Shown here: in pieces, positions 33,098 to 55,139 of the stretch
How positions within the stretch are numbered: the first letter of the stretch is position 1
Layout: every line of letters starts with the position of its first letter
Made by a program: the position numbers and the translations under genes
Notes under the pieces: generated by a model
Databases searched by the model: none
What the model was told of the DNA's origin: nothing
The model's input: the letters and a program-made list of their open reading frames with translations, nothing else
From: Myxococcota bacterium
Lineage (GTDB): Bacteria; Myxococcota_A; UBA9160; UBA4427
Assembly (NCBI GenBank): GCA_030748735.1
Contig: JASMLK010000027.1
Span: 1-64,000, forward strand
Reading direction: 5' to 3'
Length of the DNA: 64,000 nt

Positions 33098-33554
33098 GCT
33101 GGGTTCCTATTCTGGATGGGTGGGGTTGCGGGTCGGGGGTGACCGTGGGGCTCGGAGGCCGCTGTGGGATCGCTCGGCGGCGAGTGGTTCGCCTCGAAAC
33201 CGGCCCGGCTCGGCGACTTGCAACGGCGGAGCGCCGGAGTCGTCGAGCGCGCGGCAGCATAGCGAAGGGGGTCCTGATCGCTGCGGATCCCCTGTGGGGA
33301 TCATGCTGTGCTGGAGTAGCCGCGGGCTCTGACGGGCGGCAGCGGCAGCGACAAGCTGGCCTAACATCGCGCGCGGCCTGCGCACGACCTTCACTTCGCA
33401 ATGGAGCGAGTCTCGAAGTCACACCGCACATGCGCAGCAGCGACGCGGCACGGACACGGCATGACGGCAGCCCGCTTTTGTCGCGTAACCAATGGCGGTT
33501 ACGGCGCGTAACTGGGGCGAGTCGAAACAACCATTCGGAGGAAGTGCACGCGTC

Positions 33555-34715
33555 ATGCCCCCAACGAGTTCCTTGCCCAATTCCGAACGCGCCACCGCTG
33601 ACCGTTACAGCGCAGCGGCCCTCGAACGCGAAGCTGCCCTGTGCTGCCCGGTGGATTACGACCCGCAATATCTCGAGATCATTCCGGCCGAGGTCCTCGA
33701 ACGCGACTACGGCTGCGGCGACCCTTCGCGCTACGTGCGCGAAGGCGACCGCGTGCTCGACCTCGGAAGTGGCGGCGGCAAGATCTGCTTCATCGCTTCG
33801 CAGATCGTGGGCCCGAAGGGCCAGGTGACCGGTGTCGACATGAACCTCGACATGCTGGCCCTGGCGCGCGGCTCGGCACCGGCCGTTTCGCAGACGCTCG
33901 GCTACCGCAACGTCGAGTTCAAGCGCGGACGCATCCAGGACCTGGCCCTCGACATGGACGACCTCGAGCGCTTTCTCGCTGAGCATCCGGTGCAGAGCGT
34001 CGAACACCTCGACGCCCTCGAAGACGCCAAGGCCCAGCTCCGGCGCGACGCCACGATGATCCCCGACGGCTCGGTCGACATCGTGGTGAGCAACTGCGTA
34101 CTGAACCTCGTGCGCGAAGAAGACAAGCAGCAGCTCATCCAAGAGATCTACCGCGTGCTCGACCACGGCGGCCGTATCGCGATCAGCGACATCGTCAGCG
34201 ACGAGGTCGTGCCGGCAGAGCTGAGGGCCGACCCGAAGCTCTGGAGCGGTTGCATCTCGGGTGCTTTCTACGAGCTGGATCTAATCCAGAAACTCGAAGA
34301 CGCGGGCTTCTACGGCATCGAAATCGACAAATGGGAAGACGAACCGTTCGCGGTCGTCGAGGGCATCGAGTTCCGCTCGGTGACCGTCACCGCACGCAAG
34401 GGAAAAGAAGGCTCTTGCCTCGAAGCCAATCAGGCGGTGATCTACCGCGGCCCGTGGAAGGAAGTCGTGGACGATGACGGCCATACGCTGAAGCGGGGTG
34501 AACGCACGGCCGTTTGCGCCAAGACCTATGCGATCTACCACCAGGCACCCTACCGTGATGATTTCATCGCTGTGCCGCCTCGCGTGCACGTGCCCGAAGA
34601 CGAACGCGGTGAATTCGATTGTTGCCGCGACCAGGTGCGCGACCCGCGCGAAACCAAGGGACAGGACTATCGCCTGACCCGCGAACCCGGCGAAGGTGAA
34701 AGCTCGTGCTGCTGA
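33555..34715 (+). CDS. arsM: ArsM-like SAM methyltransferase (arsenosugar-type)
   Basis: 386 aa; YGCGDP, VLDLGSGGGKICFIASQIVGPKGQVTGVDM, SNCVLNL, GGRIAISDIV, SGCISGAFY; C-terminal SSCC; overlaps arsS. Confidence 0.78.
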   Translation: MPPTSSLPNSERATADRYSAAALEREAALCCPVDYDPQYLEIIPAEVLERDYGCGDPSRYVREGDRVLDLGSGGGKICFIASQIVGPKGQVTGVDMNLDMLALARGSAPAVSQTLGYRNVEFKRGRIQDLALDMDDLERFLAEHPVQSVEHLDALEDAKAQLRRDATMIPDGSVDIVVSNCVLNLVREEDKQQLIQEIYRVLDHGGRIAISDIVSDEVVPAELRADPKLWSGCISGAFYELDLIQKLEDAGFYGIEIDKWEDEPFAVVEGIEFRSVTVTARKGKEGSCLEANQAVIYRGPWKEVVDDDGHTLKRGERTAVCAKTYAIYHQAPYRDDFIAVPPRVHVPEDERGEFDCCRDQVRDPRETKGQDYRLTREPGEGESSCC

Positions 34716-35761
34716 AAGACGAACCGGACATCGCAGCGGGCAGCGTAGGCGCGGCGGCGGACGAAGGAGTGACGACGGCGCGCGAAGCAGCGAGCGTCGC
34801 AGACGCCAACTTCGATAGCTACGCGCGCGACGCCCTCGGCACGGGCCTCGTGCGCGGTGCGGCGACGACGCTGCAGGTGAACATCACCAAGCGCTGCAAC
34901 CTCGCCTGCCATCACTGCCACGTCGAAAGCGGACCGAAGCGCAGCGAGGCGGTGAGCGAGAAGATCGCCAACCGCGTGCTCGAACTGCTCGAACGGAACC
35001 CCTCCCTCGAGGTGCTCGACCTGACTGGCGGCGCACCGGAGTTGTCCGGTCAGTTTCGCCGACTCGTCACCGGTGCGCGCGCGCTCGGACGCCGGGTGAT
35101 CGATCGCTGCAACCTCACGATCCTGTACGAACCCGGCCAGGAAGACACGGCCGCCTTCCTCGCCGAAAACCGCGTGGACGTCGTGGCCAGCCTTCCCTGC
35201 TACACCGCCGAAAACGTCGAAGCCCAGCGCGGGCGCGGCGTGTTCGACAAGAGCATCGAGGGGCTCCGCTGGCTTGTGGAGCTGGGTTATGGCGACCCGG
35301 GAGGCGACCTCGTCCTCGACCTCGTCTACAACCCGGGCGGTGCCTTCCTTCCACCCGCGCAAGCCGAACTCGAAGCCACCTATCGCGATCGACTCGCAGG
35401 CAACTTCGGTATCCGCTTCAACCGGCTGCTCACCATCACCAACATGCCGATCAAGCGCTTCGCGCACGACCTCGAACGCGAGGGCCGTCACGGCGAATAC
35501 ATGTCGTTGCTCGTGAACCACTTCAACCCCGACACGGTGGCGGGGCTCATGTGCCGCGAAACCATTTCGGTAGGCCACGACGGCCAGCTCTACGACTGCG
35601 ACTTCAATCAACAACTCGAATTGGGAATGACGGGCCCCGCGAGCTCGATCTTCGACTTCCACGACGCGGCCGCTCTGACCGGTCAGCGCGTGGCCACCGC
35701 GGCACACTGCTTCGGCTGCACGGCCGGCGCGGGATCGAGCTGCGGTGGCGCCCTGGACTGA
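34706..35761 (+). CDS. arsS: Arsenosugar biosynthesis radical SAM protein ArsS-like
   Basis: 351 aa from GTG; TLQVNITKRCNLACHHCHVESGPKRSE (CX3CX2C), DLTGGAPEL, C-terminal CFGCTAGAGSSCGGAL. Confidence 0.85.
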   Translation: MLLKDEPDIAAGSVGAAADEGVTTAREAASVADANFDSYARDALGTGLVRGAATTLQVNITKRCNLACHHCHVESGPKRSEAVSEKIANRVLELLERNPSLEVLDLTGGAPELSGQFRRLVTGARALGRRVIDRCNLTILYEPGQEDTAAFLAENRVDVVASLPCYTAENVEAQRGRGVFDKSIEGLRWLVELGYGDPGGDLVLDLVYNPGGAFLPPAQAELEATYRDRLAGNFGIRFNRLLTITNMPIKRFAHDLEREGRHGEYMSLLVNHFNPDTVAGLMCRETISVGHDGQLYDCDFNQQLELGMTGPASSIFDFHDAAALTGQRVATAAHCFGCTAGAGSSCGGALD

Positions 35762-35771
35762 ACCACCCCTC

Positions 35772-36521
35772 ATGAAACGAGAGACGAACGACGCCGCGGA
35801 CGAAAGCGGCGAGAGCAACACCACGCGTCTCGTGGTCGGGGCCGCCGTGCTGGTGGCCTTGCTCTTCGGCGCACGGCACCTCGGTGGCTACCTCCCGCAG
35901 GTCGTCGAATATGTCGAAGGACTCGGGGCACTGGGCCCCCTGGTCTTCATGCTCGCGTACATCGTCGGGGTGGTGGCGTTTCTACCGGGTGCGCTTCTCA
36001 CGTTGACCGGTGGCGCACTCTTCGACATCGGCCCGGGCACGGTCTACGTGTTCGTCGCCGCAACGATCGGTTCCGCGCTGGCCTTTCTCGCTTCGCGCTA
36101 CATCGCGCGCAGCATGATCGAAGCCAGACTGCGCGAGAACCCGCGCTTCGCTGCGCTCGATGAAGCCGTCGGCGACCAGGGACGCAAGATCGTCTTCTTG
36201 CTGCGACTCTCGCCCGCCTTCCCCTTCAATTTCATGAACTACGCGCTCGGGCTCACCCGCGTGAGTTTCCGCGACTACTTCATGGCGAGCGCGGGCATGT
36301 TGCCGGGGACGCTCTTGTACGTCTATTACGGCAAGGTGGCCGGCGACGCTGCGGCACTGGCGGCGGGAGCGACCGTCGAGAAAGACGCCAGCCAATACGT
36401 CGTGCTCGCTCTCGGGCTGGTGGCCACCATTGCGGTAACCACCATCGTGACTCGCATCGCACGCAAGGCACTCGCCGAAACCACCCACATCGCCGAGCCC
36501 GCGGACAGGAACGCGACATGA
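35772..36521 (+). CDS. TVP38/TMEM64 (DedA-like) membrane protein
   Basis: 249 aa; FLPGALLTLTGGALFDIGPGTVYVFVAATIGSALAFLASRYIAR, LRLSPAFPFNFMNYALGLTRVSFRDYF. Confidence 0.88.
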   Translation: MKRETNDAADESGESNTTRLVVGAAVLVALLFGARHLGGYLPQVVEYVEGLGALGPLVFMLAYIVGVVAFLPGALLTLTGGALFDIGPGTVYVFVAATIGSALAFLASRYIARSMIEARLRENPRFAALDEAVGDQGRKIVFLLRLSPAFPFNFMNYALGLTRVSFRDYFMASAGMLPGTLLYVYYGKVAGDAAALAAGATVEKDASQYVVLALGLVATIAVTTIVTRIARKALAETTHIAEPADRNAT

Positions 36522-38101
36522 ACGAAGCCAGCGCGATCAGTGACGTCATCCCCGTCGAAGTGCCGCCGATGGACGCGCACAACCGCAAGCTCGTGGACAA
36601 TGTGCACCCGGCCGAGTGGCCCAACCCGGAACCAGCCCCCTCGTACAACCTCGTGGTCATCGGAGGCGGCACTGCGGGGCTCGTCGCCGCCGCGGGTTCG
36701 GCGGGGCTGGGTGCGAGGGTTGCGTTGATCGAGCGGCACCTGCTCGGCGGTGACTGCCTCAATTCCGGCTGTGTCCCTTCGAAGTCCCTGCTGCGTTCGG
36801 CCCATGCGATCGCGGACATCCGGGCGGCGGCCGACGTCGGTGTGGCAGTCGACCCGAGTGGGGTGAAAGTCGACTTCGGTTCGGTGATGGAAAGGCTTCG
36901 AGAGATTCGCAGCCGGATCAGCAAGCACGATTCGGCGACCCGGTTTCGCGACGAGTTGGGCGTCGACGTCTTCATCGGCGATGGCAGATTCAAGAGTGCG
37001 GGCGAAATCGAAGTGGCGGGCAAGACCCTGAAGTTCAAGAAGGCGGTAATCGCCACCGGGGCACGGCCTTTCGTACCGCAGATCCCCGGGCTCGAAGGAG
37101 CCGGCTATCACACCAACGAGAGCATCTTCGGCCTGACCGAACTACCCGCTCGCATCGGGATCATTGGCGGCGGGCCGATCGGGTGCGAACTCGCGCAGTC
37201 TTTCGCGTGCCTGGGCAGCAAGGTGACGTTGATCGAGCAGTCGCATCAGTTCCTGGTCCGCGAAGACCCCGACGCGGCGGACACCCTGCGCGCCGCCCTC
37301 GAGCGTGACGGGGTCGACGTCGCGTTGGACACCGCGGTAGCCGCAGTCGAGGGCAGCGGCGAAGAGAAGCGGATGAAGCTGGTCCGGGGCGGGAGCGCGG
37401 GCGGCGAACAGAGCGCAGGCGAACAGACGAGAGAAGAATGGATCGAGGTCGACGCCATTCTGGTCGGCGCCGGCCGCATTCCCAACGTCGAAGACCTGGG
37501 CCTCGAAGCCGCGGGCATCGAGACCGATCGCGCGGGCGTCGTGGTCGACGACCAGCTGCGCACCACCAACCCCAACGTCTACGCCAGCGGCGATGTATGC
37601 ATGTCGACCAAATTCACCCACGCGGCCGACTTCGCTTCGCGCGCCGTCATCCAGAACGCGCTCTTCTTCGGCCGCAAGAAGGTATCGAGCCTGACCATCC
37701 CCTGGTGCACCTACACCCGCCCCGAGATCGCCCACGTGGGGATGTACGAGCGCGACGCCCGGGAAAAGGGGATCGAAGTCGACACCTGGGTTCGCTCGTT
37801 TGCCGAGGTGGACCGCGCGATCGCCGAAGGCGAAGAAGAAGGCTTCGTGAAGATCCACACGGTGAAGGGCAAGGACACGATCGTGGGCGCAACCATCGTG
37901 GCGAAGCACGCGGGCGAGATGATCAGCGAGGTGAGTGTCGCGATGGCCGGTGGCCTCGGGCTGTCGAAGCTTTCCGCAGTGATCCACCCCTACCCCACCC
38001 AGGCCGAAGCGATCCGGCAAGTGGGGGATGCCTTCAATCGCACGAAGCTGACGCCGCTCGTAACGAGGCTCTTCGATCTGATTCTGCGCTGGCGGCGGTA
38101 G
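36518..38101 (+). CDS. Flavin-dependent disulfide reductase (mercuric reductase/LpdA-like)
   Basis: 527 aa; VVIGGGTAGLVAAAGSAGLGARVALIERHLLGGDCLNSGCVPSKSLLRSAH; GIIGGGPIGCELAQSF; 4-nt overlap with upstream gene. Confidence 0.88.
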   Translation: MNEASAISDVIPVEVPPMDAHNRKLVDNVHPAEWPNPEPAPSYNLVVIGGGTAGLVAAAGSAGLGARVALIERHLLGGDCLNSGCVPSKSLLRSAHAIADIRAAADVGVAVDPSGVKVDFGSVMERLREIRSRISKHDSATRFRDELGVDVFIGDGRFKSAGEIEVAGKTLKFKKAVIATGARPFVPQIPGLEGAGYHTNESIFGLTELPARIGIIGGGPIGCELAQSFACLGSKVTLIEQSHQFLVREDPDAADTLRAALERDGVDVALDTAVAAVEGSGEEKRMKLVRGGSAGGEQSAGEQTREEWIEVDAILVGAGRIPNVEDLGLEAAGIETDRAGVVVDDQLRTTNPNVYASGDVCMSTKFTHAADFASRAVIQNALFFGRKKVSSLTIPWCTYTRPEIAHVGMYERDAREKGIEVDTWVRSFAEVDRAIAEGEEEGFVKIHTVKGKDTIVGATIVAKHAGEMISEVSVAMAGGLGLSKLSAVIHPYPTQAEAIRQVGDAFNRTKLTPLVTRLFDLILRWRR

Positions 38102-38136
38102 TCGCCGCCCCGTAACGGGGACGGCATACTGCGCCC

Positions 38137-39015
38137 ATGACGATCGGCATCGACATGGGCGGCACCGGCGTGAAGATCGCCAGTGTGGAGGGACCGCGCG
38201 TGCTGGGCTCGTGTTCCATCCCAACGGATGTGAGCGGCGGGCCACTTGCGTTGCTGGATGCGATTGCCGAGGCAGCCCTCGGCCTGGAGGCGAAGCCGCG
38301 CGCCGCCGGCTTCGGCGTACCGGGTGAAGTGGACGACGAGGGGCGCTGTTATCGGCTGCCGAACGTGCCCGGCTTCGAAGGCGTTGCGATGCAGGCGGAA
38401 ATGGAAGCGCGGCTCGGTTGTCCGGTGAAGGTGGAGAACGAAGCGACGGCGGCCGGCCTGGCGGAGCTGCACTACGGGCATGGCCGCGAACATCCGACCT
38501 TTCTGTTGATCACGCTGGGCACCGGGGTCGGCGGTAGCGTCGTGATCGACGGCAAGGTGCGGCGCGGCCGGCACGGCTTCGGCGGCGAACTTGGGCACAT
38601 CGCTCTCCACCGCGAGGAATCGTGGTCTTGTGCGTGTGGGCAACACGGGTGTCTCGAGGCGTACGCGGGAACCAGGGGATTGATGCGCTACTTCGAGGCC
38701 GGAGGCGGGCGCGCGAAAGAGGTGCGTGACATCGCAGACAGCGCACGACGCGGCGAGCGTGCGGGGCTCGCAGCGTTCGAACAGATGGGCGAGGCGTTGG
38801 CCGATGGGATTCGCTCGCTTCAGTGCGTGCTGGACGTCGATGCGATCGTCTTCTCGGGCGGAATCTCGGCAGCGTTCGACCTGTTCGAGCCGAGCTGCCG
38901 AAGGGCACTCCGAGCGCGGGCTTATGGGCCGCCGTTGGGAGAGGTGCCGCTACTGGTCAGCGCGCTGGGCGAGCAAGCCGGGCAGGTGGGGGCGGGGTTG
39001 TTGCCGAGCGCGTAG
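38137..39015 (+). CDS. ROK family sugar kinase
   Basis: 292 aa; IGIDMGGTGVKIA, TLGTGVGGSVVIDGK, zinc motif CACGQHGCLE. Confidence 0.92.
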   Translation: MTIGIDMGGTGVKIASVEGPRVLGSCSIPTDVSGGPLALLDAIAEAALGLEAKPRAAGFGVPGEVDDEGRCYRLPNVPGFEGVAMQAEMEARLGCPVKVENEATAAGLAELHYGHGREHPTFLLITLGTGVGGSVVIDGKVRRGRHGFGGELGHIALHREESWSCACGQHGCLEAYAGTRGLMRYFEAGGGRAKEVRDIADSARRGERAGLAAFEQMGEALADGIRSLQCVLDVDAIVFSGGISAAFDLFEPSCRRALRARAYGPPLGEVPLLVSALGEQAGQVGAGLLPSA

Positions 39016-49219: not shown

Positions 49220-49318
49220 TTCCCGACTTCTCAAGATGAGGCCGCGCGCTGGTTTGCGCGGCACCGCGCATGGCGTTGATCCGCCGTGCGATCGATCGAG
49301 AACTCGGGAGCCAGAAAG

Positions 49319-50683
49319 ATGACAACACAGATTGCAGGTCCGCGCACCAGACGCGCATGGGCCGACCACGCCGGCTGGCGGACACGCGGCCTCCGCGCAG
49401 TGCTCTTCGCGGGCGGCTTCGGCCTCTTCGCCAGCTTCGCCCTCTTCGCGACACAGGCGCAGGCCGGTACGCCCGCGCAACTCCCACCCGTGCTCACCCT
49501 CGAGTGGTGTCTCGAACGGGCGAAGAGCGCGAACCCCTCGCTCGAAGTCGCGCGTGCGCGCGCAACGGCGGCGGAACATCGCGTGAAGCCTGCGGGCGCC
49601 TTCGACGACCCGCGCCTTTCGTACAACGCGAGCAACATCCCGGCCGGTGACTTCGATTTCGCTTCCACTCCGCTTTCGGGGCACCAGTTCGGACTTCGCC
49701 AGAAGCTCCCCTTCCCGGGCGAACGCTCGAACCGCCGAAGGGCGGCGGCACGCGAAGCGACGGCACTGTCGCTATCGGCCGAAGACGAACGACTCGCCAT
49801 CGAAGCGACCGTCGAATCCGCCTGGGCGGAACTCGGTTTCGCGAGGCGGGCCCTCGACATCACGGACCGCAACATCCAGCTCCTGCGTCAACTCGCTTCG
49901 ACCGCCGAAGCGCGGTACCGGGTCGGAAACGGTCTGCAACAGGACGTCCTTCGCGCCCAGGTGGAACTCACCGCGCGACTCGAGGAACGCCTGCGGCGAG
50001 AGGAAGCCATCGAAGCGAGCGCCGCGCGCCTGGTTGCGCTCCTCGACCTGCCGCCGACGACCGCCCTTCCCCCGATCGAAGCGCTGGGGCTCACGACGGC
50101 CGAACCCGCGCTCGAACCCCTGCTGATCAATCTCGATGAGAAGAGCCCGCGCCTGCTTGCCGCGCGCGCGCAGGTTTCGTCGGCGCGACACCGCGTGCGC
50201 GCGACCGAACTCGAGGGGTTGCCCGACATCGATCTGGACGTCGGCTATCGCGTGCGGCGCGACCACCCGGGCGACGCCGTCGACGGCGACGACTTCATCT
50301 CGGCCGGCTTCACCCTTCGCCTGCCGGTAGATCGCGGCCGCTGGCGTGCGCGCGCTGCGGAACAGAAAGCGAACCTGCGTCGCGCAGAAGCCGAGCTTCG
50401 AAGTGCGCGTGCGCACCTCGCATCGCGGGTGCGCACGGCGCACGCCCAACTCGTTCGCGCCGCTTCCGAAGTCGAACTGCTTCGAACGGGCCTCGTGCCC
50501 CAGGCCCAGCAATCCCTCGAGTCGAGCCGCTCCGCGTACAAGGTCGGCCGAATCGAATTTCTGAGTCTGCTCGATAGCCAGGTGCGACTGCTCAACGCAG
50601 AGCTCAGGCTCGCGCGCGCAACCGCGGACACACATCACGCGTTTGCGTCACTCGAAAGTGCCGCGGGAGAAAAACTCCGATGA
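49319..50683 (+). CDS. cusC: TolC-family outer membrane efflux protein (CusC-like)
   Basis: 454 aa; LTLEWCLERAKSANPSLEVARARATAAEHRVKPAGAFDDPRLSYNASN, first gene of CBA set. Confidence 0.85.
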   Translation: MTTQIAGPRTRRAWADHAGWRTRGLRAVLFAGGFGLFASFALFATQAQAGTPAQLPPVLTLEWCLERAKSANPSLEVARARATAAEHRVKPAGAFDDPRLSYNASNIPAGDFDFASTPLSGHQFGLRQKLPFPGERSNRRRAAAREATALSLSAEDERLAIEATVESAWAELGFARRALDITDRNIQLLRQLASTAEARYRVGNGLQQDVLRAQVELTARLEERLRREEAIEASAARLVALLDLPPTTALPPIEALGLTTAEPALEPLLINLDEKSPRLLAARAQVSSARHRVRATELEGLPDIDLDVGYRVRRDHPGDAVDGDDFISAGFTLRLPVDRGRWRARAAEQKANLRRAEAELRSARAHLASRVRTAHAQLVRAASEVELLRTGLVPQAQQSLESSRSAYKVGRIEFLSLLDSQVRLLNAELRLARATADTHHAFASLESAAGEKLR

Positions 50684-52008
50684 TTCTCATGACATCCACG
50701 ACGAATTTCGCCCGCACGTTGCTCACCGTCGCCGGCCTTGCACTCGCCCTCGCGGCCGGCTGGTTTTCCCGCGACCTCTTCCCGCCGACACACACACCGG
50801 CGATGGACCCCGAGGACGAACACGCCGCGCATGCGGTCGGCTCGCCCTGCCCCGGCGGCGCGGCACCGCGTTACTGGAAGGCGCCCATGGACCCGACCTA
50901 CGTGCGCGACGCACCAGGCAAGTCTCCAATGGGGATGGACCTGGTCCCCGAATGTCCCGCCGACGACGCGGACGCTCCCGAAGGTGCGGTGGTCATCGAC
51001 GCTGCAACGATGCAGAACATGGGCGTACGCACGGCGCGCGTCGAACGTCGCGACCTCGTTCGCACGGTGCGCGCCTTGGGCCGCGTCGCCTACGACGAAC
51101 GTCGCGTTGTGCACATCCACACCAAGGTGCAGGGCTGGGTCGAAGAACTCTTCGTCGACTACGTGGGCCAGACCGTTCAGCAAGGCGAGCCGCTGCTCGA
51201 GATCTATTCACCCGAACTCGTCGCCACGCAGGAAGAACTCCTGCTCGCCCACCGCTACACGGCGGCCACGCAGGAAAGCCCCTTCGAAGACGTACGCGAA
51301 AGCGGAGCGTCGCTCTTCGACGCCACCCGGCGCCGTCTCGAACTGATGGACATCCCCGAGCGAGACATCGACCGGCTGCTCGAAACGGGCGAAGCGAAAC
51401 GTACGCTCACGCTCTATGCCCCCTCTTCGGGCATCGTGACGCAGCTGGGCGTGCGCTCGGGTATGGAGGTGAGACCGAACTCGAACCTCTACACGATCTC
51501 CGACGTCTCGCGCGTATGGGTGCTGGCCGACGTCTACGAGTACGAACTCCCGTGGCTGGCCGTCGGACAGAATGCCAGCGTAGAGCTCAGCTACCTCCCG
51601 GGCGAAACCATGGAAGGCCAGGTCAGCTATATCGCCCCCTTCCTCGACCCGACGACGCGAACCGCCGAGGTCCGGGTCGAACTCGACAACGCCGAAGGGA
51701 AACTCAAGCCCGAGATGTTCGGCAACGTGCTGATCGCGGGGGCGCCCCGTCCGGACACCGTTGCGATCCCGCAAGACGCGGTGATTCGTTCGGGCACGCG
51801 CACCCTCGCCATCGTCTCCCTCGGCGATGGACGTTTCGAACCCCGCCCCGTCGAAATCGGCCTCGACACCGGCGACGGATGGTTCGAGGTCGTGGCGGGT
51901 CTCGACGTCGGTGAGGAGATCGTCTTGTCGAGCCAGTTCCTGATCGACAGCGAGAGCAATCTCCAGGAAGTCGTGCGCAAGCGCCTCGCCAAGAGTGGAG
52001 GCGAGTAG
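50680..52008 (+). CDS. cusB: HME-RND periplasmic adaptor with heavy-metal-binding domain (CusB-like)
   Basis: 442 aa; YWKAPMDPTYVRDAPGKSPMGMDLVPEC, VVHIHTKVQGWVEELFVDYVGQTVQQGEPLLEIYSPELVATQEE. Confidence 0.92.
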   Translation: MILMTSTTNFARTLLTVAGLALALAAGWFSRDLFPPTHTPAMDPEDEHAAHAVGSPCPGGAAPRYWKAPMDPTYVRDAPGKSPMGMDLVPECPADDADAPEGAVVIDAATMQNMGVRTARVERRDLVRTVRALGRVAYDERRVVHIHTKVQGWVEELFVDYVGQTVQQGEPLLEIYSPELVATQEELLLAHRYTAATQESPFEDVRESGASLFDATRRRLELMDIPERDIDRLLETGEAKRTLTLYAPSSGIVTQLGVRSGMEVRPNSNLYTISDVSRVWVLADVYEYELPWLAVGQNASVELSYLPGETMEGQVSYIAPFLDPTTRTAEVRVELDNAEGKLKPEMFGNVLIAGAPRPDTVAIPQDAVIRSGTRTLAIVSLGDGRFEPRPVEIGLDTGDGWFEVVAGLDVGEEIVLSSQFLIDSESNLQEVVRKRLAKSGGE

Positions 52009-52013
52009 ACGTC

Positions 52014-55000
52014 ATGCTGAGGAAGATCGTCGAAGGTTCTGCGCGCAACCCGTTCCTGGTCGCCATCGGCATTGCGGCGCTGCTGGCATGGGGAAGCTAC
52101 GCCGTCGTCAACACGCCACTCGACGCGATCCCGGACCTGTCCGATGTGCAGGTGATCGTCTTCACGGAATACCCCGGCCAGGCGCCTCAAGTCGTCGAAG
52201 ACCAGGTCACCTATCCGCTCTCGACCGCGATGCTCGGCGTCCCGTTCGCGAAAGTCGTGCGGGGCTACTCGTTCTTCGGGCTGTCGTTCGTCTACGTGAT
52301 CTTCGAAGACGGCACCGACCTCTATTGGGCGCGCAGCCGGGTGCTCGAGTCACTCAACTTCGTTTCGGGACGCCTGCCCAAAGGTGTCAGTCCGACACTC
52401 GGACCGGACGCGACGGGCGTGGGCTGGATCTACGAATACGCGCTGGTCGATCGCACCGGCACCCACGATCTCGCGGCACTTCGCTCGGTTCAGGATTGGC
52501 ATCTCCGGTACGAACTCCAGAGCGTGCCCGGCGTGGCCGAAGTCGCGAGCGTCGGTGGTCACGTGCGTCAGTACCAGGTCGAAGTCGACCCGAACCAGCT
52601 CGCGATCTACGGGCTTTCGCTCGATCACGTCCGACACGCGATCGAGCGCAGCAATCGCGACATCGGCGGCAGGCTCGTCGAGCAGGCCGAAACCGAATTC
52701 ATGGTGCGCGGTCGCGGTTACATCGCATCGACGCAAGACCTCGAACAGATCGCCGTCGGGGCGAACGCAACCGGCACGCCGGTCCTGCTGCGAAACGTGG
52801 CCAGCGTGTCACTGGGACCGGAGCTGCGCCGCGGACTCACCGACCTCGACGGTGAAGGCGACGTCGCTGCGGGCATCGTCATCATGCGCTCCGGCGAGAA
52901 CGCGCTCGAGACCATCGCGAAGGTCAAGGAAAGACTCGCCCAACTCAGCGAGAGCCTTCCGGCCGGCGTCGAGATCGTCCCCGTCTACGATCGCGCGCCA
53001 TTGATCGAGCGCGCGATCGAAAACCTGCGTGAGAAGTTGTTCGAGCAGGGGTTCATCGTGGCGCTCATCTGCGTGGTGTTCCTTGCGCACGTGCGAAGCG
53101 CGCTCGTCGCCATCCTGCTCTTGCCGCTGGGCATCCTCTTTTCGTTCGTCGTGATGTTCCACCAGGGCATCAACGCGAACATCATGTCGCTCGGCGGGAT
53201 CGCGATCGCCATCGGCACCATGATCGACGCAGGCATCGTCATGGTGGAGAACGCGCACAAGCATCTCGAACGAGACGGCGGCAAGCGGCCGCGTCGGGAA
53301 ATCCTCATCGAAGCCGCGGTGGAAGTCGGGCCTTCGCTCTTCTTTTCGCTGCTCATCATCACCGTGTCGTTCTTGCCGATCTTCGCGCTCGAAGCGCAGG
53401 AAGGAAGGCTCTTCAAGCCACTCGCATTCACGAAGACCTATGCGATGGGAGGCGCCGCGCTTCTATCCATCACGGCCGTTCCCGCGCTCATGGTCTGGCT
53501 CGTGCGCGGGAAGGTCCGCCCGGAGCGAAAGAACCCCCTGAACCGACTCGCGCTCGCGGCCTATCGACCGCTACTGGCCGCTGCACTTCGCCATCGCTTC
53601 GTGGTGCTGGCCGTGGCGGTCCTGGTCTTGTTGTCGAGCCTGGTACCGCTCCAACGCATCGGCTCGGAATTCATGCCGCCGCTCGATGAAGGCGACCTGC
53701 TCTACATGCCCACCACCCTGCCGGGGCTCTCCATTACGAAGGCGCGGGAGATTCTCCAGCAGACCGATCGCCTGATCGCGACCGTGCCCGAAGTAGAGCG
53801 CGTATTCGGCAAGATCGGGCGCGCCGAAACCGCCACCGACCCGGCGCCACTGTCGATGATCGAGACCACCATCACGCTCAAACCCAAGAGCGAATGGCGG
53901 TCGGGCATGACGACCGAGAAGCTGATCGCCGAGCTGGACAGCTTGATTCGTTTTCCGGGTCTCACGAACGCGTGGACCATGCCGATCAAGACGCGGCTCG
54001 ACATGCTGGCGACGGGAATCAAGACCCCGGTCGGCATCAAGGTTTCGGGCCCCGACCTCTCCACGCTCGAAACCCTCGGGCGAGAGATCGAAGCCACGCT
54101 GCGAGATCTTCCCGGAACGCTCAGCGTCTATTCGGAGCGTGTCGTGGGCGGCAACTATCTCGACTTCGACGTCGACCGCGCGCAGATCGCTCGCTACGGG
54201 CTGACCGTCGGCGACGTTCAGGACGTGATCCAGACCGCGGTCGGCGGCATGAACATCAGCCAGACCGTCGAAGGCCTCGAACGCTACCCCGTGAATCTCC
54301 GCTACAGCCGCGAGCTTCGCAGCGATGTCGCAGCACTCAGGCGCGTACTCGTCCCCACTCCGAGCGGGGCCCAGGTGCCGCTCGAGCAACTCGCCGAGCT
54401 CCGCTTCACGAAAGGGCCGCCCGCGATCAAGACCGAAAACGCGCGACCGAACGCAACGATCATGGTCGACCTCGAAGGGATCGATGTCGGCACCTACGTG
54501 CGCAACGCCCGGGCGGCACTCGCCGAAGGTGTCGACCTGCCGCCCGGCTATTCACTCACCTGGAGTGGCCAGTTCGAATACCTCGAGCGCGCGATCGACC
54601 GCCTCATCCTGGTCGTGCCCGTCACCCTCGGCGTCATCTTCCTGCTGCTCTTCTTGAACTTCCGCGCGGTCGTCGACACCCTGCTCGTGATCGGTGCCAT
54701 TCCATTCGCACTCGTGGGCGGCCTCTTCCTGCTCTGGGTGCTCGACTACGACTTCAGCGTTGCGGTGGGCGCAGGCTTCCTCGCCCTGGCCGGGCTCACG
54801 GCGGAAACCGGCGTGATCATGCTGCTCTTCTTGAACCAGGCGCGAGCACGTGCTTCGCAGGCGGGAACACTGCGAACCGTCGAAGATCTCTGGCACACGA
54901 CGATCGAGGGCGCGACCTCGCGCGCACGCCCCCTGCTCATGACCGTGGCGTCCGACGTGATCGGACTGCTCCCGATCATGTGGGGTATCGGAACGGGCTC

Positions 55001-55139
55001 GGAGACCATGCGCCGCATTGCGGCCCCGATGGTGGGCGGCGTGCTGAGCGCGACGCTCGTCACCCTGTTCGTCATCCCGGTGCTGTACGTCGTGATCCAC
55101 GGGTGGAGGCTCCCCCGCGCCGAACGGTCGCCGAAATAG
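52014..55139 (+). CDS. cusA: HME-RND Cu(I)/Ag(I) efflux pump (CusA-like)
   Basis: 1041 aa; GDLLYMPTTLPG, ETATDPAPLSMIETTI, TRLDMLATGIKTPVGIKVSG carry Met at the three CusA metal-site positions. Confidence 0.94.
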   Translation: MLRKIVEGSARNPFLVAIGIAALLAWGSYAVVNTPLDAIPDLSDVQVIVFTEYPGQAPQVVEDQVTYPLSTAMLGVPFAKVVRGYSFFGLSFVYVIFEDGTDLYWARSRVLESLNFVSGRLPKGVSPTLGPDATGVGWIYEYALVDRTGTHDLAALRSVQDWHLRYELQSVPGVAEVASVGGHVRQYQVEVDPNQLAIYGLSLDHVRHAIERSNRDIGGRLVEQAETEFMVRGRGYIASTQDLEQIAVGANATGTPVLLRNVASVSLGPELRRGLTDLDGEGDVAAGIVIMRSGENALETIAKVKERLAQLSESLPAGVEIVPVYDRAPLIERAIENLREKLFEQGFIVALICVVFLAHVRSALVAILLLPLGILFSFVVMFHQGINANIMSLGGIAIAIGTMIDAGIVMVENAHKHLERDGGKRPRREILIEAAVEVGPSLFFSLLIITVSFLPIFALEAQEGRLFKPLAFTKTYAMGGAALLSITAVPALMVWLVRGKVRPERKNPLNRLALAAYRPLLAAALRHRFVVLAVAVLVLLSSLVPLQRIGSEFMPPLDEGDLLYMPTTLPGLSITKAREILQQTDRLIATVPEVERVFGKIGRAETATDPAPLSMIETTITLKPKSEWRSGMTTEKLIAELDSLIRFPGLTNAWTMPIKTRLDMLATGIKTPVGIKVSGPDLSTLETLGREIEATLRDLPGTLSVYSERVVGGNYLDFDVDRAQIARYGLTVGDVQDVIQTAVGGMNISQTVEGLERYPVNLRYSRELRSDVAALRRVLVPTPSGAQVPLEQLAELRFTKGPPAIKTENARPNATIMVDLEGIDVGTYVRNARAALAEGVDLPPGYSLTWSGQFEYLERAIDRLILVVPVTLGVIFLLLFLNFRAVVDTLLVIGAIPFALVGGLFLLWVLDYDFSVAVGAGFLALAGLTAETGVIMLLFLNQARARASQAGTLRTVEDLWHTTIEGATSRARPLLMTVASDVIGLLPIMWGIGTGSETMRRIAAPMVGGVLSATLVTLFVIPVLYVVIHGWRLPRAERSPK

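Follow-up and report, generated by a model that had tools for sequence, protein, structure and literature searches.

An ordinary arsMS operon with its usual TVP38-disulfide reductase neighbours, adjoined by a ROK kinase gene, in a Myxococcota-type bacterium

Five closely spaced genes in a Myxococcota-type bacterium raise the question of whether they form one dedicated arsenosugar pathway or a shorter arsenic operon among other neighbours. The initial steps of arsenosugar synthesis are catalysed by SsArsM and SsArsS (PMC8552651) and the later ones are unsettled; here homologues of both enzymes are followed by genes for a membrane protein, a flavin disulfide reductase and a sugar kinase. The features are listed in coordinates of the whole 64,000-nucleotide stretch of DNA that was analysed, hereafter the window.

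33555..34715, + strand: ArsM-type arsenite methyltransferase, 386 aa, with conserved Cys54, Cys181, Cys233 and C-terminal Cys385-Cys386
34706..35761, + strand: ArsS-type radical SAM protein, 351 aa, GTG start, with C64xxxC68xxC71 and DUF3641
35772..36521, + strand: TVP38/TMEM64 (VTT, COG0398 DedA-type) membrane protein, 249 aa, PF09335
36518..38101, + strand: FAD pyridine-nucleotide disulfide oxidoreductase of the PRK06370 subfamily, 527 aa, NF004991
38108..38120, + strand: short inverted repeat CCCCG-TAA-CGGGG in the gap 5' of the ROK gene, read from the sequence
38125..38130, + strand: CATACT, a -10-like element before the ROK ATG, conserved in the genus and a putative promoter element
38137..39015, + strand: ROK-family sugar kinase homologue, 292 aa, PF00480, with ENEAT at the catalytic Asp

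All five open reading frames lie on the + strand, and the genes, overlaps and gaps reported in a preliminary description of this DNA were recovered exactly: the ArsM and ArsS frames overlap by 10 nt, TVP38 follows ArsS after 10 bp and overlaps the reductase frame by 4 nt (ATGA), and 35 bp separate the reductase from the ROK gene. The GTG start of ArsS is supported by the recurrence of the 10-nt ArsM/ArsS overlap in other genomes (G001, G002, L042 and L050), and an SD-like GGAGGAAG precedes the ATG of arsM. The TVP38 and FAD disulfide reductase genes are probably co-transcribed with arsMS. Direct reading of the gap between the reductase and ROK genes found no T-run 3' of the CCCCG-TAA-CGGGG repeat, an inverted repeat that is at most a putative terminator. 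Another inverted repeat, CGTAACC...GGTTACG, lies just 5' of arsM (window about 33482-33510) and is not kept in three same-genus relatives; a conserved operator was sought in this region, where the upstream sequences of four genus members align poorly. The locus is a well-formed but ordinary arsMS operon with its usual TVP38-reductase neighbours. At a distance of 10 kb from it, an RND efflux set (window 49286-55139) comprising an outer membrane protein, a CusB/HlyD-type adaptor with a heavy-metal-binding domain and an AcrB-type pump constitutes a candidate metal efflux system.

Support for an arsenosugar-type core of ArsM and ArsS, as the preliminary description had proposed, comes from family models, from the catalytic cysteines and from synteny. 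ArsS exceeds its curated cut-off (TIGR04167, 423.6 bits against 300) and carries PF12345, and both its radical SAM cysteines C64, C68 and C71 (CX3CX2C) and its C-terminal cysteines C283, C298, C335, C338 and C346 are kept in at least 124 of the 125 rows of the alignment. Members of the ArsS family can be selenoproteins; the window copy is the Cys form, not the Sec form. Arsenic adenosylation by ArsS has been described (Cheng 2021, as cited in PMC12159101), and the window protein is predicted to adenosylate a dimethylarsenical.

ArsM is less readily placed by family models, its best curated match being the arsinothricin model NF040538 (363 bits, cut-off 500 missed), with lower scores against the arsenosugar-ArsM model NF038099 (127 bits, cut-off 400 missed) and PRK11873 (189 bits, cut-off 263 missed). 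Its match to the arsenite methyltransferase 8xt7 has E=5e-33, and its C54 (YGCG), C181 (SNCV) and C233 (GCIxGA) align with cysteines of PDB entries 8xt7 and 5evj. C181 and C233 are kept in all 40 of the 40 ArsS-linked ArsMs and the C-terminal Cys-Cys in 39 of them, and C54 in 24/24 rows aligned at that position. These features point to a protein that would methylate arsenite. As in Synechocystis, where SsArsM and SsArsS (PMC8552651) likewise pair an arsenite methyltransferase with an ArsS radical SAM enzyme, ArsM would convert arsenite to a dimethylarsenical, to which ArsS would add a 5'-deoxyadenosyl group to yield dimethylarsinoyl-adenosine, reactions demonstrated for homologues of both enzymes. 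The window system differs from that of Synechocystis in that its ArsM falls outside NF038099 and has an extra segment around residues 131-168, and in that glycosyltransferases are unlinked in the window genome.

Two further ArsM-like methyltransferases are encoded in the same genome. One (G000:C88:14385-15137, - strand; L241/L243) has an in-frame TGA exactly where ArsM carries its third conserved cysteine (DLWTG*IAGA), and a 45%-identical homologue in G012 (L244) has a TGA at the same site, which suggests a putative selenocysteine-containing ArsM; the other (G000:C58:119-775, - strand) has no internal stop and shares 45% identity with the C88 protein.

Overall, we consider it likely that the locus combines an arsMS operon, which would open arsenosugar-type metabolism by forming the C-As bonds, with a TVP38-reductase module and a ROK housekeeping neighbour. 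This places arsMS with TVP38-reductase in uncultured Myxococcota-type bacteria.

The standing of the remaining genes was assessed by a neighbourhood survey based on an iterated HMM scan, which sampled ArsS loci from the 80 nearest in GTDB genomes and from 60 relatives, these being the closest relatives of the window ArsS and not a random sample. Genes were counted when on the same strand and within 5 kb, and the wider set comprised 52 loci flanked on each side by 4.5 kb or more. Across phyla the commonest ArsS neighbours in this set were TVP38 and the disulfide reductase (33 loci each), followed by TIGR04282-like and TIGR04283-like genes (22 each), ArsM (19), MTAP (8), sterol desaturase (4) and ROK (1); the 25 order-level loci gave TVP38 18, reductase 18, ArsM 8 and ROK 3. 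The three VTT genes of the window's own 5.08-Mb genome would, by simple arithmetic, place TVP38 within 5 kb of ArsS in only about 0.6% of cases, against 63% observed, so the association of ArsS with TVP38-reductase lies far above chance. ArsS adjoins TVP38-reductase in Acidobacteria and in Alpha-, Gamma- and Bdellovibrio-type genomes, with differing gene orders, and several loci of the last three groups (L057, L061, L063, L064, L066 and others) encode the two as a single fused protein. In one same-genus genome (G002; L154:9013-10293, - strand) a probable membrane protein of 426 aa, for which a search of NCBIfam gave no match, lies between ArsS and TVP38.

The TVP38 protein matches PF09335 with 97.9 bits, has matches in 55 of 61 relatives and shows strongly conserved residues over 72 aligned ArsS-linked copies. 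In the window its VTT domain adjoins a PF07992+PF02852 protein, the pairing of COG0398 DedA (TVP38) with a pyridine-nucleotide disulfide oxidoreductase (PNDR) that also supplies the commonest COG0398 fusions and has been tied to aerobic metabolism (PMC10127716); arsenic is not mentioned for those pairs, whereas the window pair follows arsMS. The reductase exceeds its cut-off (NF004991, 773 bits against 620), and its active site comprises GGDCLNSGCVPSK (GGDC(80)LNSGC(85)VPSK) and His490 in HPYPTQAE. It belongs to the same flavoprotein superfamily as MerA, which provides its closest PDB matches (5x1y), but an identification as MerA was rejected: the TIGR02053 score of 370.6 bits lies below the cut-off of 454, the C-terminus (RLFDLILRWRR) has no Cys pair, and the His is retained. 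Since HPYPT keeps this His where MerA 5x1y has APYLT, the enzyme is assigned to the thiol-disulfide type.

Because the TVP38-reductase pair occurs in 53 of the 61 relatives, including 11 of the 16 that have no ArsS, we read it as a module of general use and not as a step reserved for arsenosugars; given its occurrence in those 11 genomes, its link with arsenic may be only an indirect one. Close orthologues of the reductase nearly all have TVP38 alongside on the same contig, with ArsS near or not. The preliminary description had put forward the reductase and TVP38 as candidate pathway steps; their recurrence beside ArsS upholds part of this proposal, and the presence of the pair in ArsS-lacking relatives tells against the rest. 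It is nonetheless plausible that the pair acts with ArsS in redox chemistry or at the membrane, since the two genes recur beside arsS in several phyla: most likely, the pair would provide reduced (di)thiols or low-valent arsenic for ArsM and ArsS, or handle product at the membrane. A stronger version, in which the pair is a dedicated ArsS partner in several phyla, TVP38 moving an organoarsenical intermediate that the tethered reductase keeps reduced, can be advanced only tentatively; if true, it would supply one of the undefined steps in arsenosugar metabolism.

The opposite reading makes the pair an unrelated resident, with arsMS merely lying inside an old SDR-TVP38-reductase neighbourhood. 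Besides the breadth of its distribution, it draws on three genomes, two without ArsS (G009 and G038) and one with ArsS elsewhere (G004), in which the pair occupies the same syntenic site beside an SDR gene. Local synteny cannot, however, explain the Acidobacteria, Alpha-, Gamma- and Bdellovibrio-type loci, since in these ArsS also stands beside TVP38-reductase, in other orders and with fused forms. A weak positive co-occurrence with ArsS within the order (reductase present in 42 of 45 ArsS-bearing and 11 of 16 ArsS-lacking genomes; Fisher p=0.024, phylogeny uncorrected) likewise argues against it, and we regard an unrelated resident as rather unlikely.

The ROK kinase gene presents a different pattern. 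Its product matches PF00480 above the cut-off (179.5 bits), carries the Zn motif CxCGxxGCxE as CACGQHGCLE, and scores 161 bits against the TIGR00744 glucokinase model, missing the cut-off of 260. The gene adjoins the reductase across short gaps in each of the four genus genomes (G000-G003) and is under purifying selection similar to that of its neighbours (G002: dN 0.167, dS 1.35), and therefore retains a function of some sort. The preliminary description had named the kinase as a candidate for a sugar-handling step and had called for a survey of its conservation next to arsS, counting a lack of conservation together with separate transcription against the proposal; when that survey was run, the linkage appeared only in these four genomes of one genus. 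No further case of a ROK gene linked to ArsS was found among 61 relatives and the 52 well-flanked wider loci, the single ROK in the latter set being the same record as G001, and none of the well-flanked loci outside the genus has ROK beside ArsS. Most relatives are draft assemblies, in which contig breaks could mask such links; in the single-contig genome G030, ROK lies 1.06 Mb from ArsS. The nearest orthologue outside the genus (G005, 53-54%) is unlinked to ArsS and stands beside a trehalose-phosphate-synthase-like gene, as read from its sequence.

The sequence upstream of ROK points to separate expression. CATACT lies 6 nt 5' of the ROK ATG in the window, and CATACTG aligns 6-9 nt before the start in all four genus genomes while the surrounding gap has diverged. 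Leaderless transcription of ROK is plausible because TANNNT elements stand at a similar distance 5' of other genes in the same genome. CATACT occurs near a start at 1/5 sites, against 15/1012 for 60 anagrams, sites too few for statistics; it is therefore from its conservation that we infer a promoter-like element upstream of ROK. A single polycistron including ROK is possible, and the gene is probably a co-located housekeeping sugar kinase, separately promoted, that adjoins the operon in this genus and stands outside the pathway.

These observations also bear on the proposal that all five genes form one dedicated arsenosugar pathway, with ROK phosphorylating an arsenosugar or ribose intermediate. 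Tight spacing, constant adjacency within the genus and shared purifying selection all speak for it, but every other ArsS locus examined is without ROK, the G005 orthologue resides elsewhere and a promoter-like element intervenes. Furthermore, this is the sole ROK gene found in its genome, where a search for a PF02685 glucokinase found none, and the window copy reads ENEAT instead of ENDAT/ENDGT, a Glu at the catalytic Asp that is unique to it, the Asp being kept in the 29 other ROKs compared. Synteny, the lack of another ROK and the promoter-like element disfavour ROK as a pathway enzyme, and a five-gene pathway is improbable.

Least probable is that the operon makes another organoarsenical, such as an arsinothricin-like product: ArsM has NF040538 as its best curated model and the arsinothricin cluster arsQML (PMC8552651) likewise joins ArsM to a radical SAM enzyme, but the score misses the cut-off, the radical SAM partner in the window is ArsS (TIGR04167) and not ArsL, and the five genes and their immediate neighbours hold no arsQ-type permease, so that ArsM is disfavoured as an arsinothricin enzyme.

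For an arsMS operon devoted to the first arsenosugar-type steps, the survey weakens the kinase as a candidate for what follows, and better candidates are the TVP38-reductase pair together with an MTAP-type phosphorylase and two glycosyltransferases, families that accompany ArsS in other lineages. The ArsS clusters of Alpha-, Gamma- and Bdellovibrio-type genomes and of Acidobacteria share ArsS and TVP38-reductase, and in many cases ArsM, with the window; MTAP and TIGR04282/TIGR04283 lie in the cluster there, whereas the window cluster ends at the reductase, followed by ROK. No glycosyltransferase was found in the five-gene cluster, and the families in question are encoded on other contigs of the same genome: TIGR04283 on C53 (203 bits, cut-off 182), TIGR04282 on C65 (148.5 bits, cut-off 134) and MTAP on C20 (297 bits, cut-off 275). 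Because these families are encoded together with ArsS in other lineages, the MTAP-type phosphorylase would be the best candidate for adenine removal after ArsS, while glycosylation and the sugar aglycone would have their candidates in the TIGR04282 and TIGR04283 glycosyltransferases. The C20 MTAP gene lies near an apt-like gene and for this reason may serve methionine/purine salvage only. Within the order, co-occurrence of the glycosyltransferases with ArsS is weak (TIGR04282 p=0.05, TIGR04283 p=0.27; phylogeny uncorrected). In several gamma-type loci (L078, L089, L099, L106 and others) a sterol-desaturase/OlsE-like membrane hydroxylase adjoins ArsS or the glycosyltransferases and might relate to arsenolipids.
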